Positions 7,407 to 53,811 of a stretch of 64,000 nucleotides of DNA are shown here, piece after piece (the first letter of the stretch is position 1; every line of letters begins with the position of its first letter). This DNA comes from Bryoerythrophyllum caledonicum (Eukaryota; Streptophyta; Bryopsida; Pottiales; Pottiaceae). Below the pieces are notes generated by a model, which worked only from the letters and a program-made list of their open reading frames with translations, had not been told where the DNA came from and searched no databases. The position numbers and the translations under genes are program-made. The stretch lies in NCBI GenBank assembly GCA_963971425.1, contig OZ020523.1:18348867-18412866 (forward strand), written 5' to 3'.

Positions 7407-8345
7407 AAAGCTCCTTGCACCAATTGCAAAGAGAATACTAGCGCAGACAGTGTCATCTTCTTCTTGCGAATACAATTGGAGTAGCTATTCTTTCGTCCAT
7501 GACAAGAAACGGAATCGGTTATTACCGGGAAGGGCTGATGACTTGGTCTTTGTGTATACGAACTCGAAGTTGTTCGCGAATGCAAAGTTGACGGATGAGA
7601 AGAGGTGGTATGCGGAGAACTTGGATTTAGAGGATTCACAACCACGTAAGTCGGATGACGCAGACTACTCTGACGATTCAAGCAACGGTGCCTTTGCCAA
7701 TTACGATGCAGAGCATCTAGTCGATGACATCGACAGCAGCCCTTCTCAACGTATGGATCATACCCACGACGCCCCAATCATCGAGTATGATTTTGTCGAT
7801 GACAACGTTCTTGCAGAGAAAGAAGATGAGTTGTTGCCCATAGCGCGGTACTTGAATGGAGACGGCATGGTCAATAGCAATAATATCCTTCGTCGTGGAC
7901 CGACTCCGCTTCCCGAAGACACGAAGGACAAGGGAGGAGAAGATTTATCATCCTCACTTGCAACTGCACTACACGGGCAAAAAACGCATGGGCCCTCAGT
8001 GAAGAGTGTTGAGGAAGGCAAGCATCACGGTCTCGCACTTGCGGAGAATCCCGAGCAAACAATGAAAGAGCCATTCCTAGACGACACGGTTGTACTCGGG
8101 GAGAAAACTATGGAGGGCGGTACTTACGGCAATACACGGAGTCCCATTCACGTTACGGAAAAGAAGGCATCATCCTCTAAGGATCAACCGTCCTTGCATG
8201 GTCACGCGTTGCGGTCTCTATTTGCAATCCCTCTTGCAACGGTCAGTACAACCAATTTGAAATCCTCCCACGATTTGGTGTCTCTTTTAAAACATGTGCG
8301 ACCCCGAACGCCGCAACGCCAATCTGATGGCATACCTAGTGATGG

Positions 8346-8697
8346 CACTAGTACAAAACAGGGAAAAAAAAACCGCACTCGATTTGGAGTTGCGGTTCGT
8401 TTGACCACAATGTCGGAACAGTCAGCACTGTTCCTAAATCGGGCTGTCCTGGGTTTTTTGGCCATAACTCTTTCATGTTTGGGATTTTCGAACGTGTAAT
8501 ATACCGTTGAAAGCGCCTTAAAAACACGCTTCCAACGGTATATTACACGTCCAAAAACTCCCAAAAATGAGGGAGTTATGGCCAAAAAACCCAGGACAGC
8601 CTAATGTAGGAACAACGCTGACTGTTCCGACAGCGTGGTCAAACGAACCGTAACTCCAGTTCGAGTGCGGTTTTTTTTCCCCTGTTTTGTACTAGTG
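8346..8697. mobile_element. Foldback CACTA MITE, copy 2
   Basis: It starts CACTAGTACAAAACAGGG and ends CCCTGTTTTGTACTAGTG, and it is flanked by TGG direct repeats (8343-8345 and 8698-8700). The 352-bp body is a near-perfect inverted repeat with its centre near 8520. A transcript through it would form a ~170-bp hairpin. It sits in the 3' part of the hAT frame, and exact removal restores that frame. Confidence 0.92.
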
Positions 8698-11259: not shown

Positions 11260-14139
11260 TTACATAAAACGGGAGAAGCCGGTCGATGAATGAGTGGAGT
11301 TATTATATGCAAATTCTGCTAACGGAAGCAAGTCGGCCCAGTCATCCTGACGTCGAGTAGTGAACATACGCAAATATTGTTCCAAGATCTGGTTTATTCT
11401 TTCTGTTTGCCGGTTGGATTGAAGATGGAACGCCGTAGTTGTAGAAGGATTAATACATAGGAGTTGACATAAGCGGCGCATGAACTTTGAGATAAAAAAT
11501 AGTCTTCCGGTCAGAAATAATGTCTTGGGGAGTACCGTGAAGTTTCCATATGTGTTGTAAATATAGTGACGCCGTGCCATTAGCACCAATGGTTTCTATC
11601 GTAGGAATAAAGTGAGCCAGCTTGGTATTTTTGTCCACCACGACTAATATAGAATCATAACCACTGCTCATAGGAAGTTTAACAATTAAATCCACTGTTA
11701 CTTTTTTCCAAGGAGCGTCGGCGGCGGGAATAGGTTGCAAAAGCCCGTAGCGAGCATGGTGGGTGGGCTTGGAACGTTGGCAGGTGTCACAACCATCGAC
11801 GTAGCGGTGAACATAACGGCACAGTGTTGGCCAATAAAAATCCCGAGACACCAGCTCGAGGGTCTTGGCACGTCCTTGGTGGCCTGCAGTAGGGGCATCG
11901 TGGCGCGAGCGCAAAATCTGACGGCGGAGTTCTTCGTGGTCGGGAACAAAAACCGCCCCTTCGAAACGGAGAAGGCCGTCCTCCCATGTGTAAGCAAGGA
12001 ACCGACGGCAAATGTCTGCAGGTGCTGCCTCCGGGTTGCTTTGAAAGAACGCCAATATTGGCCTAAACTTGGAGTCTTCTCTCAGGCTTGCCTTTATCTG
12101 AGTAAAGATGCGCGCGTCGGTCCACACCGGCTCAAGTCTTTCCAAGTAAGCTAGGCGCAAGAAAGGCCGAGGCTCCTCATCTGTCCCATCCGTGACATCT
12201 ACGCGTCGAGATAATACATCTACCCTTCCATTCAAAGAGCTTGGCCGGTGGTGGATGGCCAAATCAAAGGCCGAAAGCATCTCAGACCAACGAGCTTGAC
12301 GTCTGTTGAGATGTTTTGTAAATAGAAATTGTTCTAAGTTTTTATGATTGGAAATGACATGAACCTGGTGGGGGGAGCCCTCTAGGTAAATGCGCCAATC
12401 CTGGAATGCTAGCACAATGCTCAAAAGTTCCTTGTCATAAATGTCATAGTTTTTTTCAGCTAGGTTCATCTTAGAGCTCCGATATGCACATGGATGAAGA
12501 TGTCCATCATCACCCCTTTGAGACAGGATGCCCCCGGTGGCTGTGTCGGAAGCGTCTGTCTCTACCACAATTGGTTGCTCGAAGTTGGGGTGGATTAATA
12601 CCGGGGCCTTGAGGAACCGGGACCAAAGATCTGTGAAAGCAGCATCGGCCATAGGGGTCCACTGAAAACGCTGGCCTTTTTGTGTTAAGTTTGTCAGGAG
12701 AACTGCAACGTATGAATAGTCCACTATAAAGCGTCTGTAAAAATTTGTAAAACCAAGAAACGCTTGGAGTTCTTTCACCGTTGCTGGAGTCGGCTAATCC
12801 TTAATAACTTGAACTTTGTCTTGACACATCTAAAGGCCGCTAGCAGATACTGTCATGCCCAGAAATTTGACTGAGTCTTTATGAAATTCACACATGGCGG
12901 CCTTTGCATAAAGGCCATGCTTGTGTAATCTCTTCAAGACCTCGCGAACCACGGCTTGGTGAGCCTCTAAATTGGTAGAAAAAATAAGTATATCATCCAA
13001 GTAAACCACCACTGAGATGTCTAATAGGTCGCTGAAAATATTTTGCATGTGAGCTTGGAATTGTTCCGGGGCATTGGTTAACCCAAATGGCATGACCAAA
13101 TACTCATATAGCCCATAACGAGTTTTAAAAGCCGTCTTGAATTCATGCCCAGGAGCCATGCAGATTCTATGATAAGCTTGGCGAACATCCAGCTTTGAAA
13201 ATATTTTTGCACCAGTTAGGGGGTCTATGAGCTCGGGAATCAAGGGCAATGGGTAATGATTTTGCACCGTGACATTGTTGAGGTTGCAATAATCTACGCA
13301 AAATCGAATAGAGGCGTCCTTCTTCCTGGCGAAAACAATAGGGGCAGAAACGGGGGACTTGGACTGCCGGATCCACCCTTTGCCCAAGTTTTCCTCGAGA
13401 TAGCGTCGAAGCTCCTCCAACTCAATCGGGGACATAGGGCGCAATCCCGTATTACGAGGTTCCTGGCCTTCCTTGAAGTCTATCTTCATGTCTGCGGGGC
13501 CATGGTTTGGAAGCTCGTTAGCCGCCTCTTCACTGAAAGCATCGTTTAAGTCTGCATACACCGCCGGAATAGGTGCGGGCTCGACAAAGGTCACCTCACA
13601 AATCTCCAGGCAATAAATTGCTGCTTCCCGTGTAACTGATGGAATACTGTCGCCAACACCCGGGTGGGGGCGGTCGTTTGTGGTCGATAATTTGTTGGTT
13701 TCTCCTCGTGGCCTTCCTTCTGGAGTAAGCCACCGAAACACGTATGTTGGCAATAGAGAGAGTCGAACAACACCTTTTGCTGAGACCACCGGATGATTAG
13801 ATCATGGCGGACAAGCCAAGGGGTGCCAGGGATACAGTCGTAGCGCCCCGTGTTGGTAATGTCCGCAAGTAGCTTCTCCTGATGACCTCCTACGATCAAG
13901 TCCACGGTTGCTTCGTGAGTGATGAGTCCAGAACTGATAATTCGGCCGTCAATGACGTGGACCTCCCGCGGGGTAGCTTTCAACCTGATGGTAGGATTAC
14001 ATCGTTTGGCAAAGTCGGGGTGCATGAACACTCCCGTTGCACCGGAGTCCACAAGCGCCACGGCCGACACATTGTTCATATGCACATTCATTGTCAGATG
14101 TTTCTCCATATCTATGGTAGCATGGACACATAAAGCCAA
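11260..14139 (-). pseudogene. pol: Chromovirus pol: protease, RT, RNase H, integrase
   Basis: The protease (14139-13591) has VDSGATGVFM, the aspartic active site. The reverse transcriptase (13789-12830) has RFCVDYCNLNN, LDVRQAYHRI and an intact VVYLDDILIF box. The RNase H (12778-12200) has VVETDASDTATGG. The integrase has a zinc-binding H/H/C/C region (HDAPTAGHQG ... CDTCQRSK) and a core with VDLIVKLP and VVVDKNTKLAHF; the later core, with HLQSNRQTERINQ, follows in another frame (11589-11260). Stops near 12828 and 12797 and frame changes near 13700 and 11500 make it nonfunctional. Domain order (RT before integrase) assigns it to Ty3/gypsy. Confidence 0.93.
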
Positions 14140-39179: not shown

Positions 39180-40870
39180 TGTTTTGATGCTGTTGTGGGG
39201 TCCAATCCTTCTATACATAGTAGTTTTCCCAGCTGGCTCTTGTCATCAACTGTTTTGCTGCTAGCCTTTATTACGCGTGGCACGCTCACGTTATCAAACC
39301 TTGACACTCATACAGAGAGTCATACAGAGAGTCCTCATACGGAGAGTCATAACTGGCATGTACTAAGGTAAGCCCCGCTAAAACCGACAAGTGTAAAGGA
39401 TTAGCCACAACGTTCACAGATGAAGGTGAAGAAAGTGCTTCTGGGAGTGCTGTGAAAGGCAAGTGGGGCACCATCTCCAGTGCAAGGACGATGCTCACAT
39501 GTATCTCCTTCGTAGTCTATGCACGGCGCAACAGAGGCTGAAGTACGTCAGTGAGTTATTCGTCCCAGCAGTCAGAACATTATTATTGTAGCAAGTAAGG
39601 TAAGCCCCCCTATAACCGACAAGTTAAGGAGTGTGCATATGTATGGAGAGAGGAGATAATTTTACTATTATTTTTCAGTGATAGCCAATAGAATTACAAT
39701 TCCAACCCAAGTGATTTCATATTTTTTCGATGAAAACTGAATTAGTTATGAATTTTCAAACTATGCAACCATGTTAAGTGGGTGGGCAGCAGTAGGTACC
39801 CCCCATAACCAACGAGCAAAAGTAAAGGTCTTGACTAATAGCAAACCTCCATTTGGAGCTCAGTTGGTGGCAATGGGATGGAAGAGGGTTGGATACACCC
39901 CAATTTTATAGGTGTTGGCTATGCAAATAATGAAAGAGCACAAATTTAAAATTTAAAATCAATAATTAAAGGGTTTAATAATTAGTATGAGCATTTTTTA
40001 AATAATGAAATTGTACTCAAAGGAATGTATCAATTAAAGGAGAGTTGAATTCCCTCACACTGAATCTAACTAGTGTTTGTGGTATCTTGAAAAGGGGAGC
40101 CAATCTATGGGCGATGATATTTTGAAGTGAACTTGGTGAATTTTTGAAGGCGTTTCATCGCATTACAGTTGAGCTATTACAAAGTGAATTATCAATGCAC
40201 TACATGCATTGCAAGAGTATCAAATATTCGTGACAAAATTGAAGCATACTCATGGTACAATTATATAAACACCTCTATACAATCCTTTGTTGTATGTAGC
40301 AAAACTCAAAATGGAAGTACATGATAAGTATCATACATCTTATACATGATATAATGTTGGAATAAATTTAGATATTTGTGTTAAGACAAATATGTTAATT
40401 AAATACTAATAAATTTGAGTATTTATGCAAGCTTGGATTTTGTGATGGTAGTAATTCATGTTTTACTCAAGATTGCTAATATAATAATTTTCTACATTAT
40501 GTAGGACACTCCAAGGGCTCCAAAATGGGGGGATCCAATATGGCAAAAACATGGCTGGTGGATTGAGGATGATGGAAGTGGATTACCTGCTTTGTAATGT
40601 TCACTATGGGCAATCAGTCCCTCTGGATTGATGACAGGACTAGGGAAAAGAATTGGAGCCCTGAAAGCTGTGGGAATGCCTAATCCTTCCTCTGTTCCAA
40701 CTATTTTTATAACTGTGGAAGATGAGGTGCAAGTGCTGATAAAATATCGATTGAATCGAAGTTTTATGATGGCAAACGTACATATTTTAAACACTTAAAC
40801 CATAATCATTACAATTATTATAATATGGAATTTGTTTGACTTCGTGTCATGTGTGGAGAGAAGAGAAGAA
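39180..40870. other. AT-rich, no gene recognised
   Basis: Short repeated words (CATACAGAGAGTC near 39310-39345; GGTAAGCCCC-TA-AACCGACAAGT at 39366 and 39600) and AT-rich DNA. A short readable patch at 40503-40600 (APKWGDPIWQKHGWW) may be an exon relic. Confidence 0.4.
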
Positions 40871-40895
40871 CGCCGGTTCCCGAAGGGAACCGGCG
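40871..40895 (-). other. Perfect 11-bp hairpin in the presumed LINE 3' UTR
   Basis: CGCCGGTTCCC, loop GAA, GGGAACCGGCG. It lies about 240 bp beyond the ORF2 stop in the element's direction and is followed there by a pyrimidine-rich TTCTTCTCTTCTCTCC. Some LINE reverse transcriptases recognise a 3' stem-loop; here that role is only inferred. Confidence 0.5.
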
Positions 40896-41133
40896 TGAAT
40901 AAAGTGTCTGTTCGTTCCACTACTAAGACCATGCCCACTGGACAAGGAATTAGTAAACTGGAACTACTTCCCTCTCTCGAGGGTAGACACTATGTAACAA
41001 GTAGCCAAGGAACCGCAAACCAACTGACGAGCCACTAACTAACCGACAAGGCAACAAACGAACCACCAATCAAGCAATTCGTCAAGAAACCTCAAAACCA
41101 ACTAGTCATGAAAAATCAAGGCGGGGGAAAAAT

Positions 41134-44100
41134 TTAAGGGGGGAGGTCTTGTGTATCGGGGAGGGCTTGATTGTTTTCGATTTTGCGTTTATGTAGGAGA
41201 ATGGACATGGCATATTGAATAGCAATGGTGTTAATGTTTTTAAAGGAGGTTTTAATTGTTTCAATGGGTATTTTGAAGGTATCTTCAAGAGATTTCATAG
41301 ATGGGATAAACGTGGTGGCACGAGCGCCGGATGTGATTACAATAAGGGGGTCGACCTTCCATCCGAGGGCGATGATGTCGTCAATAAGGGGTTGGTATTT
41401 ATCTATTTTATTTTGGATTGTTTCCGGGGAAAATCTATCGTTGCAATACGTGAATTCAATGAATTGAATGGTGTATTCTTGGTTGATGTTATCGGGTGGT
41501 GGGTCATTATATGGTAAACCTTTAACGCAGAGGATATCCGGTTTGAGCCTAGCGTTGCAATGACATCTTTGGGTCATGCATGAGCATGGGAGTAGCCAAG
41601 GGGGGACCGTATTTTCTTGTGGATTGTTATTAAAAGTACCGGCGTTCATTAATATAAAACATCTCGATTTATTGTAGGAGGTGATTAGTTTTCGGACTTC
41701 CCATACCGCTTTATTATGTCTTTTAACAATTAGAGAGTGTATGTGGTGGTTTTGGCATTTGAGTAGGACATGGAGCCATGTGTCGGGGTCCGTTGAGGGG
41801 CATATGGGGCATGTTATGGATGGGAATCTTTCTATTCCAAAGAAGAGTTGTTTGCGAGCGTTTCCCATATATTGACCCGTACGGAATTTGATGAGGCATG
41901 TTATTTGCGAGTCTGGGATGATGGGGTTTTTCCAAAAATTTGTAGAGAGTTCATTGTCTATGTCGTTATTGTTAGTCCATTTTTCTATGTTAGGAATATT
42001 TTCTGAAATTGTGTCAAGGTTGTTGTAGAGGTCTTGTTTTTTGAGATATTTGCCCAAAAATCTAATTGGGCCTTTGTCGGGGGTATCTTCTTTGGAAGGC
42101 CAATCTTCTTTTTGAAAGTAGTATGGGGTGGCATGGGCATGTTCGTGTGGGTCTGTGGCGTTTTTGTGTGTTTTTTCTCGGCCTTCTTTTGCTAGTTTGT
42201 CTGCTTGTTCATTGCCATCAATGTTAGCATGGGCTCTTACTTTGTGGAGGGTTGTGATTTGTGTACGGTTTTGTAACATTTGGACCATTGATGTTAATAT
42301 GGTTTGGTCGGGGTGGCTATTGTGAAGGGTAGGGTGTGTTATTTGAGTGTTAAGTAGGTAGAGTGCATTTATACAATCGGTGAATATATGTGCGGGTTCA
42401 TCATTGTATTTTGTTGTGATGATTTGTAGTGTTTTGTGGATGGCCATGAGTTCTGCTCTGAGAATATTTTGTAGTCCATGAAGTCTTTTGGCTAGTTTAA
42501 TTTCTTTGATAAAATTATATATGCCGTAGCCAGCTTTTTCTCTGCGCCAAGAGCCCGGGCTAATTTGTTCTGGTGGTTTGAAGGAGCCGTCGGTGTAATA
42601 ACTGTATGTGGGGTTAAATTTTGGTGTAGTATGGATTTGGTAGTCTGGAAGAGGGGGAGGTATGACGGAGTAGTTTAATGTGTTGTTGACATAGTTTAGT
42701 TTTGACCAGTTTTTACTTTTGTTTACAGGGGTTTGTATAGGTGTTGGTGGGGCCAGTTTTGTGTATAGTCGGTGTATGCCTAGATTGTTTGTTACGGAGG
42801 TAAGTTCCGCAAGTTGTTCTAGGGAGCCAAGGGTTTGATTTTGATGGTGGACGCATAGTATTTGTAATGTAGATGGCTCTATTCGGGGTTTTTTTAGCTC
42901 GGGTGGAATAGTAGGTTCTTCGTATGGTATTGTGTCGGCTTCGAATAGTGCAATGATATGGGAATCTGGGAATGGATTTGGATGTTGGTTGTTGTTTTGG
43001 TACCAATTACTGTTCGGTGCGATGATGATTGTTTTTGTGTTATTTGGATCGTGTTTGGCGGCAAGTCTAGCCCAATGTATGGCTTGATCCATGTCCTTCT
43101 CGTTGTGGGGGTGGGCTATGCCATTACCTGTCCATTTGTAGTCAAAGGCCTTTCCTAGGGATCCGAATATTTTGTCTCTTTCATGCGGTGAGTAGAATTT
43201 TTTTAGTTTGGTAGAACATGTGACTGGGGAAGAGAAGTATGATTGCTCGATATTAAAGGATGAGATCAGTGAGTCTAAAATGAGAGTGGGTATTGTGTAT
43301 TGGGCATTTTTGAGGGGGTCAGTTTTTGGTATTCGGTATTTATACCTTTGGTAGAGCCATATTAGTTCGGTTTCAAAGGGTTGGGTCGTTGGTTCGATGT
43401 TTGTAGGAGTTTGTAATTTGGTATTATATTGATTCCATAGCCATTGGAGTCGGGTAACGGGGATGGTGTGTAAATGTCGGCCGTTTTCTTCGAATAGATG
43501 TGCATGATTGTTATCTATTTGAATTGTGTTTGAGGATGTAAGGATATCATTTTCGGGGTTGCATTCTGTTGTGTAGATGTTTAAGAGTGGGATAATTATG
43601 GGTGGTGTTACGGACCTTGAGTCTGAGAATTGTTCTTGGGGGTGGTGGGCAAGGATGATATCTGAGTATATTTTATTTTGGATCTTTTGGTAGTATTGTT
43701 TTAATTTTTCAATGTTATGTGTGGAGGTATTGGTGTCATGCCGTGGAAAAAGGTCTCTTTGGGGGAGCCATTTATTGTATGTATTATCATTATGTTGCCA
43801 TTGGCATAGATATTTTGTGTAGGTATTTTGTATGTTATTTGTGTCTGTGTGTTGAATATGTTTATGGTTTATGATATTATTAATGGGGTATGTGGTAGGG
43901 TTTTTGGGGATGTATGTTGGGGGGCGGGGGTGGTATATATGTGGAGGGTTAGGGGGATTGGTTGGTGTGGGAATATTTCTTGGGATGATGTTATCGTTGA
44001 GGGTGATGAATGGATCTTTAAGTGTATGAGAGTATGGGTGTATGTTGCAAGGGGTATGACATATAGTGGGGCATGTTAGGTGGCAAAATAGTTGTTTAGC

Positions 44101-47100
44101 AACACTTAGGGCACTCTTTATTAGTTTAGATGGGGTGAAGTGGTAGGTTTTGAAGTCCTCATCGTTCATGATGTGTGTACCGTTGGGTAAGGTAATTTGG
44201 TTTAGCTCAAAAATATTTTTTGAGAGGAGTTTTTGTAGAAGCTTTTGGGAGAGTTGGGCATTGAGTGTGTTATGATTTAATGTTTCTTGGCGCCATAGTA
44301 TTTCTAGTGTTGTAGGATTAGTGAGGAAGTTCGGGAGCGTACTTTTAAGGTGGGCTTTAGCTACATATTTTAATAAGAAGAATGTTCGTGTTATTGGTGA
44401 TCTTATGCAGTCACTTTTTTTAATTCTCGGTATGTTTTCAGCGCCACCATATTGGGCAAGAACATAGTGAGTTAATCCATTATATATTTTCCCAAGTCTC
44501 CCTTTATCGTTTAAAGCATTTTGCAGTTGTTCGCCTATACATCGGAGGTAAGCATTTTTGAGGGAGAAGGCTTCAAGTCCAAATAGGTTATGTGGTAGTT
44601 GGGTTATTGCATTTGACATACATTTTGGTAATCCACATATGGTTTTTTGTATGGCTATTATTTTTTTGTCAAGTTTTTTGATAGCTGGCATAGAGTATGG
44701 TACACCGTAGAAACTGTATGCCACACCTGGGCGTAATACGGTATCAACCATTTTTATTTTTTGTTTCATGGTGGCCGGGCATGTTGTTAGTTCTTTGCAT
44801 TGTTTGATGAGTTTCGTCGTTGTGGTGTGGATTTGGATTTTCCATTTTAGTGAGGGAACAAGGTTTGTGCCTAAGTATATGTATGGTTCATTTTGGTGTA
44901 GTATGGGGATCGGTTGATTGCGGTAATTGATGTTCGAGGCTTGCATTAGGGCTTTGAAAGTGGTAGGATTCAATTTGGATTTGTTTGGGCATCCGGTAGC
45001 GGCACATTTTGGGACACCTACGTCCATACCGGCCCATTTACAATATCTATCAATTTTATTTAGTTGTATTTGGATTGATTTGATTTTGTTAGTTATGGTG
45101 GCTAGGTCATCCGCATATGCGGCAGAGTTTATTATGACATGTGATGTGCCAAAAGTGTATCCGTAATTTCCTCTTTCGAGCCATCTGAGTAGTGGTTCTA
45201 GAAATATAATGAATAGGTATGGGCTAAGGGTATCCCCTTGTATAGTTCCTCTTTGGATGGGTATAGGTTTTGTTTTCCCAAAGTGTTCACCGGTATAACA
45301 TGTAAATGATTTAGAATAGATGTTTCCAACAAGTGTAGTTGCATCTTTTGGGTAACCAAGGTCCATCATTATTGCTAAAAGTCGGGCATGGTCAATTGAA
45401 CCAAAGGCATTTTTGAAGTCCACGTATAGTATGTATATATCTTGGTTAGTAAACTTTGCGTCTTCTAGTGCGGCTATTATAGTTTGTATTTGTCGTGCGG
45501 TACTTCTCTCTGCTCTAAATCCTTCTTGACTATCATGTAGGATTTTGAATTTTTCGCCGTATGAGGATAGTATGGAGGTGAGTGTACTGGTAAAGAGTTT
45601 GTATATTGTGTTAGCTAGTGCTATTGGTCTATGGTTGGGTAGTATGGACGGGTCGCCTTTTTTGTATAGTAGAATTGTTGTACTTAATTTCCATGAGTTT
45701 GGTATCTGTTTTTGTTTATAGCAGTGGGAGAAGAATAGAAATAATAGCTTGTGAAATCTTGGAGGCATGTTTTTGAGTATTGAGTTTGGTATGCGGTCTG
45801 GGCCTGGGGCTTTATTGTTTCCAAGATTTTGAAGGCATGTGTCGTATGTGGCTCTGTTGAGGTATTTATGTAGTGGAATTTCTGGTTCGCCTCGTTTGTC
45901 AAGGGTATATCCGTCCAGGTCGTGCCAAGGGTATTGGCGTATTGCACATGTGCATTCTATTGTATGTTGTGGCTGATAATTACATGTTGGTACTGTTGGT
46001 CTATTGGTTTTTGTTTGTTGGTTGAATATTTCATTCGCAATGTCTTCGGGGCTGGTTAGAATATTATTATATTGATTTTTGATACAATCCATTGGTGGGG
46101 ATTCAAGGTTTTTGAAGACTTTTTTGTTAATTTTTTTGGGGCTGATTTCGTATAGTTGTCTGTATTTTGATATGGCTTTTTTAATGTTTTCTTTTGTGTA
46201 TTTTGTGATTATTTTCCTGGCTTGTATGTTGGCATTTTTTGCAATTATCGCGATATCTTTTATCCATGTATCGTGGGGAAAGTCCGGAGGCGGCGGGATA
46301 GGGATTTGGATGTGTTGTATAGTTAGTAGTTCGTTGTGTATGGGGTGGTTACGCCATTGGGGGTTGTTTTTTACAATTCTAATGGTTTTACGTATGGTAT
46401 GGTATGTGGTTAAGTGTTGTTTCCACGTTTTAGAAAGTTTGCGGGGTAGATACCCGCCTTGTTGGGAGGATCTATTTGTCATTTGGGGTATGGGGTGTGC
46501 TCTACAAGTTTGTTCTAGTGTATCAGATATTTTATTGATGAGTTTGTCTAGAGAGTGGCATGCTTCTTGCCATTGTGCTTGTGTTAATTGACTATTATTT
46601 TCAAGAGTGTTGATGAGAGAGTCTATTTGTACAGAATTTTCTTCGAAAAATTTTGTGTTGAATTTTTCTATCTTGGTTTTTGGGATGGGGTTGAGTATGC
46701 GTATAGTGTCTTTGTTTGGGATTGTAGGAGTTCTACTAATTAGTGTGTTATTTGGGATGTGCAACTGTATGGGTGAGTGGTCCGAGTTGAGAATAATATC
46801 TTTGTTTGTTGTGGAGGTGTATTGTGTATTGTTGTTTGTATTTATATAGAATCCATCTATTAGACTCCAATCACTATAATTGTAGCCACCTTGTCTAGAG
46901 AATTGTGTATTGGTATTGATGTAAGTGAAGTTTAAGTTTTCTGTGAAGCGGCGCCATTGGTAATCAATGTTTTGAGGGGGGGTGTGATGGTTTCCATTTT
47001 GGCGGCCAATTAGCGCTATGTCTCTATTGAAGTCTCCACATAATAAGTATGTATGATTAGGATGATTATTAATATGGGATGTAATAGTGTTTTGTATATC

Positions 47101-49443
47101 TAAGAGAAATCTAGTATCTTCGGGATGGGATGGCATATACATGTGAAAGATTAACCACGGTTGTAGTGGGTGATTAGTGATTTTAATTATTTGAATGTAC
47201 GGTGATATGTGCATTGGGGTAGGGATTTTATTGATGTTGCCTGGGAATGTATATTTTTTGTGTATTAATGTAAGGAGGCCACCGCGGCCCGGTGTGTATG
47301 GTCTCCGTTGTTGAATGCATCTAGTAAGTGCATGTGTATTGTTGAAGATGAGTTTATAATTTTGAAATATATTTTGTATATATTTTGTGGATTTTGAGGT
47401 GGATGTTTTTGTTTCTTGTATAACTATTATGGCCGGTGGTGTGTCTGTGTATGTGACTAAGGTTTGCAAGCTAGGAAGAGCCGTATTAAGGGATGAAGCA
47501 TTCCATGTAATTATGTTTGTGTTTTCGGCGTTTGAACTGTTATTATGGTGTTGTGGAGGAAGGTAGGAAGGTGGAGGGGGCGGATGGGTATATTCAGGTA
47601 TGGGGTCGAAACATTTTAGTGATTCATCAATAAGTTTGTTAGGGAGGTAGGGGAATTTTTGTTTTATTATTATGTTAGATGGCGGTATGGTTTGATTATG
47701 TATAAAGTCGTACAGTTCTTCATGTATTGAGTTTCCATGTTTTATGATACTTTGGTTCTCTTCGAGAAATTTTGTATAAGGGTGTGGTGTATGAATATGT
47801 CTTTCAGGTGGATTTTGTAAGTTTGATAAGGTTCGTAATAGTGTGTTAGTCCATGTAATTGTATTATGGTTTTGTACATTTAAAAGATGGTTACATTCGT
47901 CTATGTTTGGGTGAGTGGTGATTATTAGGGCATATAGAATATGTGTTGGTGGATGCATATTTTTTTGTAGTATATATTGGGCAATATTTGGGTGTGTTGT
48001 GTTATATAGTTGATGTAGTGTATGTGTGGGTTTTAAAAGGGGGGCAAATGTTTGAGAAATGTGTTTGTATTCCGGTTGAAGTTTTATGGAGTTTGGTATG
48101 AAATAAATTTTTGCGTTCTTCTTATGTGTTGTAGGATGTGTTTTTAGTATGTTAGGCATGGGTCCTGGGTTGGTTTCTATATCTCCACTTTGTAGTAATA
48201 GGGTTTTGTAATATGAGGGTTTAATGTGTTGTTTTAGTTTTATTGTTTTGTGTATGTGTTTTAGGTATTTTTTAGTTTTTGTTTTCATGGTTGTAGTATT
48301 TTTGTTTATGTATTTGTGTATGTTTTTGTTTGTGAAATTTGTTGTGGTTTTGTATTTTCTTGTGATTTCGAGCTTTGTATACGGGTGTGTATTTTTGATG
48401 GTGTTTGTGTGGGCTTGTGTATATTTGTTTGGATATTTTTTTGTGTGTGTCTTTGCGGTGGTGTATAAGTGGGTTTTTGTCTGCGGGTGTGGATGGGTAG
48501 TTGTGTGTATATGCTTGCGTGTGTATGTAGTATGTGTATATTTGAGTTTATGTGTGTGTGTTTGGATGCATGGGTGTGTTTGAGTGGATGTGTGTTCATA
48601 TGTATTTGTGGTTTTTTCGTATGTGTTTGTAATTGTGTTTAAGTGTGCAAATGATTGTGTGTTTGTTTTGATGTATTTTTGTGCATGGATGTGTGTGGGT
48701 GTGGATGTATTTATTTTTGTTTTTTGGGGAGAGTATGTAATGATGGCGGTTTTTTTGTTTGTGGTTGTGGAAGGTGTGTACATAGAGGGGTATGTAGGAT
48801 GATGAGTGTTTACATTGGTTGGAGGTGTGTGTGGGAGTAGGATTGATGTGTTATGAGTCGTTGTGTGAGTAGTGTTTGTAATGTAGGGATGTAGTAGGGG
48901 TGTATGAGTGTTGAGTGTGTGTATTCCATATGTATTTTTCAAAGAGATATTCATACCGTAATGGTATATGCATTTCCAAAGTTTATAGATATGTGGAAAA
49001 ATTCCCCAAGGCCAATACATGTGATCACCATGTGGTCTCCAAGTCATGTGTTTAGTTGTGGATGAGTGATAGTAGAAGTATATAGTATGTCTAGCATAGG
49101 AGGTGGGTAGTGAAGAAGGTGTATAGACTATGGTGAGGCTAGAGTGTACTGTGACTATAAGAGTAGAATGATATATCGTTATTGATGGCAAATAAATGAA
49201 AGAGTAGGGATTCTGGGAGTCTATATCTATTTTGAGAGGTGTGGAGGGTGTAAGTGTCATAACTATTGGGGTATTAACTATCATATTGTAGTGTAAAGGG
49301 GAGAGTATACTAGGGGAGATAGTGATTTCAATGAGTAGGTGAGTGCACGAAGAGAGTTGGGAGATGTAGGGGAGGGAGGTGACAACCTTGTTCACCCATG
49401 TGTTGCCACATTGGTGATTTTTTCGACTGTAGTCCTTGGTCAA
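41134..49443 (-). CDS. LINE ORF2 polyprotein: 2A, APE, RT, RNase H, RLE
   Basis: 2,769 codons without a stop. Residues 1-414 are Thr/His/Lys/Asn-rich low complexity. 415-428 is LLLQSGDIETNPGP, a 2A ribosome-skipping motif. 644-900 is APE endonuclease (TWNASSL, IVIQETK, LLCGDFNRD, NSDHSPI). About 1190-1500 is RT (NKAPGPDRIPNS, EGFRAERSTARQ, AYADD at 1442-1446). About 1880-1910 has a chromodomain-like patch (YLCQWQHNDNTYNKWLPQ). About 2075-2150 is an unidentified module (GKAFDYKWTGNG, IIIAPNSNWYQ). 2280-2420 is RNase H (YYTDGSF, RAELMAI, IFTDC, GNEQADKLAKEG). About 2540 is a CPIC...H...C knuckle. 2630-2700 is an R2-type endonuclease (KPD at 2636, IEFTYC with E at 2663, then NKIDKY). All listed catalytic residues are present. 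The ORF1 TGA overlaps the first listed codon (TTG); the first ATG is residue 54, so reinitiation or frameshifting may start it. Confidence 0.92.
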   Translation of the reverse strand: MTKDYSRKNHQCGNTWVNKVVTSLPYISQLSSCTHLLIEITISPSILSPLHYNMIVNTPIVMTLTPSTPLKIDIDSQNPYSFIYLPSITIYHSTLIVTVHSSLTIVYTPSSLPTSYARHTIYFYYHSSTTKHMTWRPHGDHMYWPWGIFPHIYKLWKCIYHYGMNISLKNTYGIHTLNTHTPLLHPYITNTTHTTTHNTSILLPHTPPTNVNTHHPTYPSMYTPSTTTNKKTAIITYSPQKTKINTSTPTHIHAQKYIKTNTQSFAHLNTITNTYEKTTNTYEHTSTQTHPCIQTHTHKLKYTHTTYTRKHIHTTTHPHPQTKTHLYTTAKTHTKKYPNKYTQAHTNTIKNTHPYTKLEITRKYKTTTNFTNKNIHKYINKNTTTMKTKTKKYLKHIHKTIKLKQHIKPSYYKTLLLQSGDIETNPGPMPNILKTHPTTHKKNAKIYFIPNSIKLQPEYKHISQTFAPLLKPTHTLHQLYNTTHPNIAQYILQKNMHPPTHILYALIITTHPNIDECNHLLNVQNHNTITWTNTLLRTLSNLQNPPERHIHTPHPYTKFLEENQSIIKHGNSIHEELYDFIHNQTIPPSNIIIKQKFPYLPNKLIDESLKCFDPIPEYTHPPPPPSYLPPQHHNNSSNAENTNIITWNASSLNTALPSLQTLVTYTDTPPAIIVIQETKTSTSKSTKYIQNIFQNYKLIFNNTHALTRCIQQRRPYTPGRGGLLTLIHKKYTFPGNINKIPTPMHISPYIQIIKITNHPLQPWLIFHMYMPSHPEDTRFLLDIQNTITSHINNHPNHTYLLCGDFNRDIALIGRQNGNHHTPPQNIDYQWRRFTENLNFTYINTNTQFSRQGGYNYSDWSLIDGFYINTNNNTQYTSTTNKDIILNSDHSPIQLHIPNNTLISRTPTIPNKDTIRILNPIPKTKIEKFNTKFFEENSVQIDSLINTLENNSQLTQAQWQEACHSLDKLINKISDTLEQTCRAHPIPQMTNRSSQQGGYLPRKLSKTWKQHLTTYHTIRKTIRIVKNNPQWRNHPIHNELLTIQHIQIPIPPPPDFPHDTWIKDIAIIAKNANIQARKIITKYTKENIKKAISKYRQLYEISPKKINKKVFKNLESPPMDCIKNQYNNILTSPEDIANEIFNQQTKTNRPTVPTCNYQPQHTIECTCAIRQYPWHDLDGYTLDKRGEPEIPLHKYLNRATYDTCLQNLGNNKAPGPDRIPNSILKNMPPRFHKLLFLFFSHCYKQKQIPNSWKLSTTILLYKKGDPSILPNHRPIALANTIYKLFTSTLTSILSSYGEKFKILHDSQEGFRAERSTARQIQTIIAALEDAKFTNQDIYILYVDFKNAFGSIDHARLLAIMMDLGYPKDATTLVGNIYSKSFTCYTGEHFGKTKPIPIQRGTIQGDTLSPYLFIIFLEPLLRWLERGNYGYTFGTSHVIINSAAYADDLATITNKIKSIQIQLNKIDRYCKWAGMDVGVPKCAATGCPNKSKLNPTTFKALMQASNINYRNQPIPILHQNEPYIYLGTNLVPSLKWKIQIHTTTTKLIKQCKELTTCPATMKQKIKMVDTVLRPGVAYSFYGVPYSMPAIKKLDKKIIAIQKTICGLPKCMSNAITQLPHNLFGLEAFSLKNAYLRCIGEQLQNALNDKGRLGKIYNGLTHYVLAQYGGAENIPRIKKSDCIRSPITRTFFLLKYVAKAHLKSTLPNFLTNPTTLEILWRQETLNHNTLNAQLSQKLLQKLLSKNIFELNQITLPNGTHIMNDEDFKTYHFTPSKLIKSALSVAKQLFCHLTCPTICHTPCNIHPYSHTLKDPFITLNDNIIPRNIPTPTNPPNPPHIYHPRPPTYIPKNPTTYPINNIINHKHIQHTDTNNIQNTYTKYLCQWQHNDNTYNKWLPQRDLFPRHDTNTSTHNIEKLKQYYQKIQNKIYSDIILAHHPQEQFSDSRSVTPPIIIPLLNIYTTECNPENDILTSSNTIQIDNNHAHLFEENGRHLHTIPVTRLQWLWNQYNTKLQTPTNIEPTTQPFETELIWLYQRYKYRIPKTDPLKNAQYTIPTLILDSLISSFNIEQSYFSSPVTCSTKLKKFYSPHERDKIFGSLGKAFDYKWTGNGIAHPHNEKDMDQAIHWARLAAKHDPNNTKTIIIAPNSNWYQNNNQHPNPFPDSHIIALFEADTIPYEEPTIPPELKKPRIEPSTLQILCVHHQNQTLGSLEQLAELTSVTNNLGIHRLYTKLAPPTPIQTPVNKSKNWSKLNYVNNTLNYSVIPPPLPDYQIHTTPKFNPTYSYYTDGSFKPPEQISPGSWRREKAGYGIYNFIKEIKLAKRLHGLQNILRAELMAIHKTLQIITTKYNDEPAHIFTDCINALYLLNTQITHPTLHNSHPDQTILTSMVQMLQNRTQITTLHKVRAHANIDGNEQADKLAKEGREKTHKNATDPHEHAHATPYYFQKEDWPSKEDTPDKGPIRFLGKYLKKQDLYNNLDTISENIPNIEKWTNNNDIDNELSTNFWKNPIIPDSQITCLIKFRTGQYMGNARKQLFFGIERFPSITCPICPSTDPDTWLHVLLKCQNHHIHSLIVKRHNKAVWEVRKLITSYNKSRCFILMNAGTFNNNPQENTVPPWLLPCSCMTQRCHCNARLKPDILCVKGLPYNDPPPDNINQEYTIQFIEFTYCNDRFSPETIQNKIDKYQPLIDDIIALGWKVDPLIVITSGARATTFIPSMKSLEDTFKIPIETIKTSFKNINTIAIQYAMSILLHKRKIENNQALPDTQDLPP
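48160..48201 (-). other. 2A-type ribosome-skipping motif in ORF2
   Basis: Codes for LLLQSGDIETNPGP, residues 415-428. It fits the 2A signature D-(V/I)-E-x-N-P-G-P exactly, with the hydrophobic upstream residues that 2A activity needs. Skipping between G427 and P428 would free a ~427-residue Thr/Lys-rich leader from the ~2,342-residue enzyme part. 2A motifs are known in trypanosome and some animal LINEs. Confidence 0.85.
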
Positions 49444-51080
49444 TCCACGTTTGAGTGGTCTTCTAAGGCTGGGATAGTTGGAGGCCGCGATCCTGTGATT
49501 TGTTGCATGGCCATCAGTGCAGAGGCCATCAGTTGTTCGACATTTGAGAGCTTCGCCTGTAACTCACTGGTGCGGTTATCGGTGTAGGCCTTTGTATCTT
49601 TGATGATGTCCTCTCTGAGGGTGGAGAGCTCCTGACGCAGTCTCTTGTTGCCTGCATCTATAATGGAGGTCATTTCTGACCTGGTAATACTAGCAGGAGC
49701 AGGGGTAACTTGGAGGGACTCTACTGTATTTACGAGGGCTTTGTTGATGTCATTAAAGCCCCACTTCTCCAGTAGTGCGGTGGTGGGTGGGTCATCACCT
49801 TCAAGGCTGCGGCGGTGGGGAGAAATCTCCACTTGATGTCGTCCTATAGTGAATGTCTTGTGTAGAAACTGGCGGTAGATGATAGGGTTAGGAAATTGCA
49901 CGTTGGCACTACCATTGTGCATTCCTCTCTGCTGCCTGTGGAACCATAGGGAGATGACATTCTTGGCCTCAAAGGTTTTATGGATAGCATTCGTGGTTTC
50001 TGCCACGTTCATTAAAATGGGGAGTTGGGAGAGGGTAACTGTCAATGCGTCCTTCTTGGCTCTATCTGTGGGGGAGAGGCCACCAGAGCTACTAGCACGT
50101 GCTGGTATCATCTCGTGGTGTGTGGTGATCTGGTGAAGCTCAAACTTCTTGGCCTGTTGTGGGGTTGGGGCGACTATAAAGGCGTGTGTCTCTTCTTGTA
50201 CCTTCTGCACGTCTGTAATCTCAAATTCCAAGTTTCTCGAGAAACTATTTGTCACCACGTCCTGGAAGAGGGTGTGGGCAGCCATACCTTTAAGGGTCTC
50301 GCTCTTGATTCGCACTGATAAGTTCTTCCGGGCCACTGCGTGGAAAGTTTTACACACTTTCCCTAGGGAGGCTTGTCCTAAAGGGTCCAGATGGAGGATA
50401 AAATATCTAGTACCTCGAAGAAGGGCAATAGCATCTACCTCTGGCCTGAGGAGGTGTAACTTGATGATACCGGACCATATACCCCTTTGTCCCTCTTTTT
50501 TGACACCCTTACATAAAACGGCGATAGGGTCCATGAGGTTGGTGCCTAAGGGGATTTTCATGTATTCAAGCCTTGCTAGGGCTAGTCCCTTCACATCGTC
50601 ATGGTGCATGGGATGTGGTGGCAATTCGAAGTGAATTGCCACATGAAAGTCGTAGGAAAGTCCAGTGATAGGGCTTGTAGGGATGTCAAAGGGTACCTGT
50701 GTCAGGTTGTAGTGTTGGCCCTCGATGTTGTCGCTGCGTATTGAAGAGTATAAGAGTTGTGGTATCCTAGGATAGGCCACATTAGCGCTGATGGCCTCCT
50801 CTGCTTCTTCTTTGGGTACTCCACGAGTGATCATGTCTCTAACATTCTCTCCACTAAATAGGGGCTCCTGTCCTGCATCTATGGCAAGTTTTTCCATAGT
50901 GGGGAAGCCTAACCAAAATCGAAATGATGAAAGGTCAGGGATGGAGACTTGAATGGTGGAATAGCTACCTCTAGCTTTCTTGGATGGGGTTGGGCCTCCG
51001 CTTGCCTTTGATACTAAATCTTCAGCTGTTGTGATCTTTAAAACTCCTGTGTGGGGGTTTTCGGTGTCCATGGCGTCCAT
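49440..51080 (-). CDS. LINE ORF1, RNA-binding-type protein
   Basis: ATG at 51080 (MDAMDTENPHTG) gives 546 aa. It is the first in-frame ATG: the same frame stays open for 634 more codons upstream (to 52982) without one Met. The middle of the protein (about residues 340-430) alternates strand and helix like an RRM (ALTVTLSQLPI ... GSANVQFPNPIIYRQFL ... RHQVEISPHRR). The C-terminus (about 470-530) is a coiled coil (RLRQELSTLREDIIKD, SELQAKLSNVEQLM). No CCHC knuckle is seen. ORF1 proteins of LINEs bind element RNA and assemble the particle. The stop codon TGA overlaps the ORF2 frame by a few bases, so the two are translationally coupled or linked by frameshifting. Confidence 0.8.
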   Translation of the reverse strand: MDAMDTENPHTGVLKITTAEDLVSKASGGPTPSKKARGSYSTIQVSIPDLSSFRFWLGFPTMEKLAIDAGQEPLFSGENVRDMITRGVPKEEAEEAISANVAYPRIPQLLYSSIRSDNIEGQHYNLTQVPFDIPTSPITGLSYDFHVAIHFELPPHPMHHDDVKGLALARLEYMKIPLGTNLMDPIAVLCKGVKKEGQRGIWSGIIKLHLLRPEVDAIALLRGTRYFILHLDPLGQASLGKVCKTFHAVARKNLSVRIKSETLKGMAAHTLFQDVVTNSFSRNLEFEITDVQKVQEETHAFIVAPTPQQAKKFELHQITTHHEMIPARASSSGGLSPTDRAKKDALTVTLSQLPILMNVAETTNAIHKTFEAKNVISLWFHRQQRGMHNGSANVQFPNPIIYRQFLHKTFTIGRHQVEISPHRRSLEGDDPPTTALLEKWGFNDINKALVNTVESLQVTPAPASITRSEMTSIIDAGNKRLRQELSTLREDIIKDTKAYTDNRTSELQAKLSNVEQLMASALMAMQQITGSRPPTIPALEDHSNVD

Positions 51081-53150
51081 AGTTGGTGAAGGATGTTGAT
51101 TTGGAGTTTCTGAACTAAGGTTTTCTAGTGGTTCTTCACTATTGATCCTCCAATGTACTTCTACTCCTCTATTCTTCTTTTCGATGGCTATGCGAGGAGT
51201 GGATTGGCACCGTTTTCCAAGGTTTATGCAATTTTGACGGGCTCTACTAGTGGTGGTGAGGTAGAGGGTTGAGTGTAAGGGGAGCGAGGTTGGGGAGAGG
51301 GTGATGGGAGGAAGTAGGGGGAATAATAGAGGAAGGGGGAGGTCCCAACTTGAGGGAGAAGGAGGTTGTAAGAGGAGATTAGGGTGTTTATGGAAGGTCG
51401 CAGGGGGAGGAGGAGGTCGTAGAGGTTTAGGTAGGGAGGTCGCAAGGGAAGGGGGATTGGAAAAAGTGGGATGATGCCAGCCTGTTGGGGACCGTTGGGG
51501 TCTGGGGGTCGTAGGTTTTAGTAGGGGGGGTCGGGTCAGGGGGTCGAGATAGGGGGGCAGCAGGGGAGTCGGGACAGTGGGGGAGTCGGGATAGGGGTAG
51601 GGTCGGGACAGTACTAGAGTCGGGTTAGTAGGGGTGTCGGGGGAGTCGGGCCAGCTAGGGGGTCGGGCTAGCTGGGGAGTCGGGACAGTGGGGGAGTCGG
51701 GGGGTCGGGACAGTAAGGGAGTCCGGTCAGTGGGGGAGTCGGGGGGTCGGGTCCGTATAGGAGTCGGGACAGTGGGGGAGTCGGGGGGTCGGGACAGTAG
51801 GGGAGTCCGGTCAGTGGGGGAGTCGGGGGGTCGGGTCAGTATGGGAGTCGGGACAGTGGGGGAGTCGGGACAGTGGGGGAGTCGGGGTAGTAAAGGGGTC
51901 GGGACAGGAGGGTCGGGGGGTCGTGGGTAGTAGGTCGGTTGGTAGGGGGGAGGTCGGTAATTCGAAGGTGTCGCAAGTCGCTGTGTGTGTCGTTTCTCCT
52001 TGTGTGTATCTCGTCTCGACGCCTGGTCTTGATGGTGCTCTTCTTCTGTTCTCCTTGCGCGTGCTTGCCTTGTTCCTTGTCCTTTTTCTTGCTCGTCTTT
52101 ATTGAGTTTGTCTCTGTTCTTGACTCGTTTCTTGCTCCTGGGTCTTGTCTGCCTCGCTCTCTGTGCTTGTTCGTGTTTGTCTCTGTTGTTCCCTGTTTGT
52201 GTTCGTCCCTGTTGCTCCTTTGTCGTCTGTGTCGCAGGGGTCCGTGTGCGTGGTCTATGACGTTGGAAGTCCGTGTACGTGGTCTGTCTGCCTCCTTGTG
52301 TGTCTTGTCTTCCTTCTTGTCTGCGAGGGCTGGGGTTTACAGAGAGTGTAGGGAGCTGGCTGGGGTGTGGGGAGGGGGAACCTGTTGCGGGGGGAGCTAG
52401 GTTGCATATAGGTTGGAGGAGAGGGAGGGAAGGGAGGACGCTGCAAGCTGTGGGAGAGAGGGGGCACCTGTTGCGGGGGGGGAAGGGACTATGGAAGAGA
52501 TTACGGAAAGACGAGGGTTTAGCGATAGTACTCACCTGATTTGACCTTGTCCTTGTTTGTTCACGTTCGTGTTGTCCTTGCCAATGAACTGCGATTGCTT
52601 GCCTGCTGATCTTCGGTCGCAAATCTCCTTCAAATTGCTTGACTTTGCTGCTGATGCTTGGTACGGCTATGCTTGTGGTGCAGATTGTTTGTGGGTGCGC
52701 GTGGAGAAGCTCCGGTTTGGTGTTGTAGGGTTGCTGATTCTCCGTAGTTAGATCTAGATCTGAGAAAAAAATCCAGCGCTTCGGCGTGCAGTCTCGAGGT
52801 AGATCTTTGAGACTTGTTATGTTGAACTCCACTTCAGAGGTTGTTATGTACTGCTGAACTTCAGATCTGGTATACAGCTCTCTCAAACAATTGATGTCAG
52901 AGTTGTCGTGTAAAGTGTATATGTGCTTAACAAAACATGGTGACAATGTGTGGATAACAGTGGTGAAGCAAGGAAAGGACAAAAAAGTGTAAGGGAGGTG
53001 AGAGGTAGCCTGATGTGGTGCGGTGTTGATGCCTTGCGGCGACGGTGGGGCGGTCTTGTCGTCAATCTTGTTTGCTTGTGCACCTGGGTCGGGGAGGAGG
53101 AGGGAGTATGTGGTAGGAAGCGGATTCAGTTAACCTATTCTCCGATCTGA
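51081..53150 (-). other. LINE 5' leader
   Basis: It is stop-free in the ORF1 frame but has no ATG there. It contains the G-rich minisatellite (51540-51950), a C/T-rich block (51960-52350) and, further upstream, ordinary sequence. LINE leaders usually hold the internal promoter. Exact 5' end unknown. Confidence 0.5.
51540..51950 (+). repeat. G-rich minisatellite (GTCGGGACAGTGGGGGA type)
   Basis: About 20 imperfect 18-bp units of GTCGGGACAGTGGGGGA / GTCGGGGG type. Many runs of three to six G make G-quadruplexes likely on the plus strand, that is, on the template strand of the LINE. Read on minus in the ORF1 frame it codes for PDSPTVPTP repeats, which are probably untranslated. Confidence 0.9.
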
Positions 53151-53811
53151 GATTGAGTGACCTTGTGGGTAAGATTGAAACGGCCAGATCTCTGCTCCAA
53201 CACAAGTGTCCCTAGCTTCAGATTCCTCACAGCAAGATCTTGCCACCACCTCTCCACCCTCAATCCACAAACCCCAGATCTAAAGAATTATGAGCCTTCT
53301 CAACACACATACTCTGCGTTCCACTTCTAACCACATGCCAACCACTAAGACTCACGCAGGCTCAACAACAGGGCCAGCCACCTCCTGTTGTGCGTGATCT
53401 AGGGTTTTGCATCTAAGTCCCTCCTCTCCCCTCACCAGGAAATGCGGAGCTCTACTCAGTGTTCATCTCGATCTTGCAATTTGACTGTTCGCCTAGTACA
53501 AAACTACTCCTGCACACGAGGCATTTGAACCACCTAACTCAAAAAAGTACCGTCTTTCACTAACGCCAAATCCAAAAAGGGTGCTTTTTCTTGTCTTTTA
53601 CGGCTGTATTGACTCTAGATGTAGGTAATGGTCAATAGTAAGTGAGGAGCGACAGAGTTGCTAGTTCCAAAAAGTACAAGTCCTCATTCGCACTTGTACG
53701 TATAAATTGTCATGTGTGGATTTGAAATTAAATTTCACATTGAATGGATTTATAAAATTATTTAGAAAAGTTAACATGCACATAAAAGTAATCAATTTCA
53801 TGATTTTGTAG
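53151..53811. other. No gene recognised; ends in a splice-acceptor-like site
   Basis: Mixed sequence between the LINE and the ParB/methylase-like gene. A TTTTGTAG acceptor at 53804-53811 precedes the first readable exon, so an upstream exon may lie here unseen. Confidence 0.35.

Follow-up and report, generated by a model that had tools for sequence, protein, structure and literature searches.

Copies of long interspersed nuclear elements (LINEs) are often truncated. Among these retrotransposons, R2 elements target 28S rDNA and are not known to carry an apurinic/apyrimidinic-type endonuclease (APE), RNase H or a PCIF1-like domain, and the first-described Dualen element is reported to encode a cysteine protease. 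The Dualen/RandI group is defined by the combination of an APE with a restriction-like endonuclease (RLE), RNase H has been reported for it (PMC4640811), and it occurs in relatives of Chlamydomonas (PMC8226300). In vitro, the reverse transcriptase (RT) of R2 is known both to add non-templated bases and to jump to a second template, the jump requiring prior non-templated addition (PMC8857657). The element described here lies on the minus strand of a 64,000-nucleotide stretch of the moss Bryoerythrophyllum caledonicum (contig OZ020523.1, positions 18,348,867 to 18,412,866; hereafter the window). It shares with Dualen/RandI elements of Chlamydomonas and relatives an APE and an RLE in one protein, an RT and RNase H but adds a 2A motif, a recognised PCIF1-like domain and extra bases (leaders) at every paired 5' junction, while the Josephin and OTU proteases were not detected by Pfam. 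Taken together, the results probably describe a recently active LINE of Dualen/RandI type that carries a PCIF1-like binding module and the RT of which would reach the 5' end of its RNA, add filler and sometimes jump to host RNA. Elements of this type were already known; newly noticed are the PCIF1-like domain in a LINE and the leaders, both of which, like the true ends of the element, go beyond a first-pass annotation of the window.

Recent activity of the element is supported by near-identical open copies of open reading frame (ORF) 2 and by target-site duplications. In the 437-Mb genome, 13 places, including the window, matched 8.6 kb at about 100%, two of them being one insertion with identical flanks; such counts of genome matches are lower bounds. 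Because of these 13 near-identical places, a chance origin of the ORF2 features is excluded. ORF2 sequences from eight places (the window included, two being one insertion) differed from the window copy at 0–7 of 8310 nt and were open in all eight, and ORF1 was free of stops in 12 of the 13. The suggestion of the first-pass annotation that an element with both ORFs intact may be active is supported to this extent. Among 40 scored matches to the 5' end, 16 were at 100% and 24 at 87–95%, and among 40 scored matches to the last 279 nt, 19 were at 100% and the next was at 95%. For every one of the 16 identical 5' ends, a matching 3' end lay on the correct strand and as far away as expected. The remaining three identical 3' ends represented two insertions, one counted twice, altered at its 5' end and with no duplication in the flank searched, the other without a scored 5' end. 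In the young family, to which this ratio applies rather than to older copies, 16 of 18 insertions were complete at 12.6 kb. The duplicated target sites were unrelated between copies, which sets the family apart from R2 of Bombyx, Taeniopygia and Platysternon.

The 5'-altered copy was seen at both C7:8977584 and C201:11771 (L013/L014 and L019/L020), identical flanks marking an assembly duplicate, and its altered end joins the element at the equivalent of window position 52296. A first look at the genome gave 3062 candidates for the 3' tail (query, window 40862–41140) versus 316 for the 5' end, the excess perhaps reflecting truncated old copies or SINE-like (short interspersed) or other non-autonomous elements that end in this tail.

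All 16 complete young copies were bordered by a target-site duplication of about 10–13 bp followed by extra bases ahead of the element (junctions paired by script for 10, by wider search for the window copy and by eye for five; one duplication sits in an AT repeat and is of unsure length). The same pattern was noted in six paired older copies of 24, that is, four of four with a tailored fetch and two of 20 with a guessed fetch. Leaders ranged from 1 nt to 235 nt in length. The base adjoining the duplication was a purine in 22 of 22 cases (13 G, 9 A); in the window copy an inner 18-nt piece starts with G and the base at the duplication is A, giving 22 of 22 either way. Extra bases at every paired junction, with lengths around 18 nt, in a young family that is hardly ever truncated at the 5' end form an unusual combination, and no account of such leaders was found in the literature on template jumping and cap snatching, which was incompletely covered.

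A local origin of the leaders was rejected, matches being at most 11 nt long in the element (14 leaders), at most 10 nt in their own flanks (11 leaders) and at most 12 nt in other loci and the window. Between leaders (11 tested, each against 13 others), no common stretch exceeded 10 nt. This result bears on 5' transduction, by which transcription from upstream starts would carry along the flank of a source copy and which would account for host sequence beside the element. Leaders inherited in this way would be shared, whereas copies no more than seven ORF2 differences apart carry unrelated leaders; 5' transduction is therefore contradicted for these copies, was rejected and is to be considered very improbable.

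A genome-wide search for sources was performed with four leaders. The 235-nt leader of the window copy contained 215 nt (53491–53705) that were 98% identical to C15:14352454-14352668; the 2 nt abutting the duplication differed from this source, and the 18 nt at 53473–53490 had no traced origin. A 68-nt leader consisted of G, 62 nt identical to another C15 place that is a member of a dispersed repeat, and GAATG. Elsewhere, one leader was ATCGAG, the element's own start repeated, and another was a single G. Under cap snatching, leaders would instead be capped 5' ends taken from host mRNAs, the PCIF1-like module holding the cap, the PD-(D/E)xK endonuclease cutting and the fragment being copied last. 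Both 22-nt leaders matched only themselves in the genome within 2 mismatches, which weakens the case for cap snatching as the chief origin of short leaders; as an explanation it appears very unlikely.

The domains of ORF2 that the first-pass annotation had named, namely a 2A motif, a complete set of APE motifs, an AYADD RT, RNase H and an R2-like C-terminal block, were all recovered (Table 1). DIETNPGP fits the 2A consensus, D(V/I)ExNPGP, perfectly and would be a putative skipping site; the approximately 370 residues ahead of it (aa 94–460, window 48184–49284) appeared by eye to be rich in Thr, His and Lys. The Exo_endo_phos match of the APE (4e-6) exceeded its cut-off only when the segment was scanned alone and was unlisted in the whole-protein Pfam scan. 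CCHC, RHN, KPD, IEFTYC and NKIDKY motifs all fell within 41386–41811, and comparison of the predicted structure matched the C-terminal fold to the zinc knuckle and PD-(D/E)xK endonuclease of R2. No protease was detected by Pfam in ORF1 or ORF2. The roughly 600 residues previously left as unidentified modules are now named in part, as the PCIF1-like domain; they also include a doubtful chromodomain match, which at an E value of 0.09 is not claimed.

The 18 database matches of ORF2 were at 24–40% identity, none of them close. The closest named RT, Pleodorina starrii P0010, was 40% identical in one protein comparison and 48% identical over 302 columns of the tree alignment; a further alignment, A1, comprised nine rows and omitted P0011. 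In a quick tree of 55 rows, the window RT fell beside P0117 (support 85) within a 49-row clade of Pleodorina, Haematococcus and Parachlorella elements and long metagenomic ORFs (Shimodaira–Hasegawa-like approximate likelihood ratio test, SH-aLRT, 91), set apart from R2 and the other rows; outgroup rows P0015 and P0018 were long branches, and long branches met (R2 rows with P0018). Placement of the RT inside the Dualen clade, as first proposed, thus has moderate sequence support, and neither of the outcomes that would have told against the proposal, an RT outside this group or a C-terminus of another fold, arose. An element outside Dualen with convergent likeness, such as a relative of R2 with an acquired APE domain, would agree with R2 proteins being the top PDB matches of the RT, with the moderate node support and with the composition of the window row, flagged as unusual along with that of three others. 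This alternative has very little probability in light of homology to long relatives that group with green-algal proteins, a homology that is colinear all the way from the APE past the RT to the endonuclease at the C-terminus.

A search with a Pleodorina protein gave 217 matches; among the 120 listed, many were from Haematococcus lacustris, and Josephin, PHD or PCIF1_WW domains occurred in varying mixes. Accessory modules of the clade change often, PHD fingers being noted in P0031, P0042, P0045, P0125, P0128 and P0133 and, in other relatives, Josephin, an OTU-like protease (E 0.002, below cut-off) or no protease.

The domain between RT and RNase H shares with PCIF1/CAPAM, a cap-specific adenosine N6-methyltransferase, family PF12237 and a predicted methyltransferase core fold that matches PCIF1 residues 417–673. 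Unlike PCIF1, it is fused into a LINE polyprotein, its helical and WW regions are unmatched and GIAHPHNEK (43096–43122) occupies the position of the catalytic motif, NPPF in PCIF1, so that the window has HPHN. Of the 135 relatives scanned (the 18 ORF2 matches plus the 120 listed Pleodorina-query matches, overlaps counted once), 89 had a PCIF1-like domain; this sample does not give an unbiased rate, and three of the 90 proteins counted (P0110, P0035 and P0027) yielded only short or motif-less pieces. A search of PDB by phmmer with the PCIF1-like segment of one relative gave no match. Purifying selection on the domain was evident from three comparisons of nonsynonymous and synonymous substitution rates (dN/dS). 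The 24 Dualen-like proteins with WNVPA at the motif (among P0053–P0122) are nearly identical there, which probably reflects a recent expansion.

That the domain is an active methyltransferase placing N6-methyl marks on element RNA or DNA is compatible with its fold, with purifying selection and with the motif position in 91 domain rows, which held NP[EK]Y in 20 and NPP in three ('NPPE' of P0029 being off the position). We nevertheless regard such activity as doubtful, since HPHN is found in the window and is retained in a relative 73% identical in DNA, WNVPA occupies the position in 24 rows, all from Haematococcus lacustris, and the catalytic Asn/Asp typical of the class is absent from the window domain. 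Most likely, the domain is a nucleic-acid-binding module rather than an ordinary cap m6A methyltransferase, and possibly it acts at the capped 5' end of element RNA. Methyltransferase-type domains also occur in DIRS and Ty3/gypsy retroelements, where those of DIRS and long terminal repeat elements are DNA adenine or cytosine methylases (PMC6338049), whereas the window element has a PCIF1-type fold in a LINE. The literature searched, coverage of which was incomplete, yielded no description of a LINE with a PCIF1-type domain.

In the sequence of events that we propose, the 2A motif would split the N-terminal part off from the enzyme, the target would be nicked by one of the two endonucleases, and target-primed reverse transcription would begin at the pyrimidine tail that follows the 3' hairpin. 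The RT would then copy the RNA up to its 5' end, at or next to ATCGAG, add filler for which no template can be traced and occasionally jump onto transcripts of host repeats, after which second-strand cutting and joining would give a duplication of 10–14 bp. The presence of extra bases at every paired junction and the few 5' truncations in the young family suggest that integration waits until the RT reaches the RNA 5' end. If a capped 5' end is sensed, the PCIF1-like domain would be a natural candidate for this role. The stronger proposal, that it reads the capped end of the template and licenses completion, would cover both near-exclusive full-length integration and regular capture at the 5' junction, host RNA included, and is considered rather unlikely.

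Several results weigh against the reading of a recently active Dualen/RandI-type LINE with filler addition, template jumping and a PCIF1-like binding module. Variant codons in ORF2 of young copies, eight nonsynonymous and five synonymous, give no sign of constraint over so brief a period. At the junctions, no template is evident for short leaders such as the two of 22 nt, transcription of the matched host repeats is assumed, and of the 24 older 5' ends 15 had no 3' end in the piece fetched, two had no duplication and one was ambiguous. No set in the tree with support of at least 95 holds the window, and it has no reference rows for L1, RTE or CRE. The AlphaFold2 (AF2) model had a mean pLDDT (predicted local distance difference test) of 61.9 and a pTM (predicted template modelling score) of 0.44. 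With respect to the PCIF1-like domain, one of the three comparisons (L073) had a dS of about 2, close to saturation, copy L071 has two stops, the PCIF1 helical domain, part of the cap pocket, lies outside the matched range, and the tie between domain and 5' end is a coincidence of parts only.

Comparison of copies placed the 5' start of the element, ATCGAGATGAACACTG, at 53472 and the end of its pyrimidine-rich 3' tail at about 40858, so that the element and its leader extend well beyond the 41134..51080 first assigned to it.

Table 1. Features of the element and its borders in the window.
Feature	Position in window	Strand	Basis
Whole non-LTR (long terminal repeat) retrotransposon	40858..53472	-	Comparison of 13 genomic places and flanks
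Target-site duplication, 3' copy, 13 nt	40845..40857		Copy/flank comparison
Target-site duplication, 5' copy, 13 nt	53708..53720		Copy/flank comparison
235-nt leader, between target-site duplication and element	53473..53707	-	
25-nt 3' hairpin CGCCGGTTCCCTTCGGGAACCGGCG, directly ahead of tail	40871..40895	-	Sequence, copy comparison
Tandem repeat array, upstream of ORF1	51563..51886		Repeat scan, copy alignments
ORF1, 546 aa	49440..51080	-	ORF calls; no Pfam match
ORF2, 2809 aa stop-to-stop; first in-frame ATG 49284	41134..49563	-	ORF calls
2A motif DIETNPGP, aa 461–468	48160..48183	-	Motif search
APE (EEP) endonuclease, full catalytic motif set	46768..47517	-	Motifs, Pfam
RT (RVT_1)	44869..45654	-	Pfam RVT_1 6.7e-26
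AYADDL motif of RT	45103..45120	-	Motif search
Possible chromodomain, unproven	43747..43878	-	Pfam E 0.09
PCIF1-like methyltransferase-fold domain, aa 2010–2262	42778..43536	-	Pfam PF12237, structure comparison
RNase H	42178..42603	-	Pfam RNase_H 1.5e-11
Zinc knuckle and R2-type PD-(D/E)xK endonuclease, aa 2557–2800	41164..41895	-	Structure comparison

The tandem array is made up of 42/84-bp units, and in two copies the ungapped alignment of otherwise near-identical sequences stops in or near it. When the window was scanned for Rfam families and tRNAs, nothing reached threshold. The statement that everything around the element is broken holds as far as hAT and Ty3/gypsy fragments were seen in a Pfam scan of 10 flanking ORFs, seven of which had no match; a hAT C-terminal fragment and Ty3/gypsy RT, RNase H and H2C2 fragments were split over ORFs at window 7408–8499 and 11450–13801.

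On the open question of how LINEs finish the 5' end and the second strand, this young family keeps a readable record of 5'-end events. The PCIF1-like fold, which gives a name to part of the interval between RT and RNase H, is a candidate whose proposed function at the 5' end can be tested, and cap reading by this domain, if true, would make the element a LINE with a built-in check of its 5' end.
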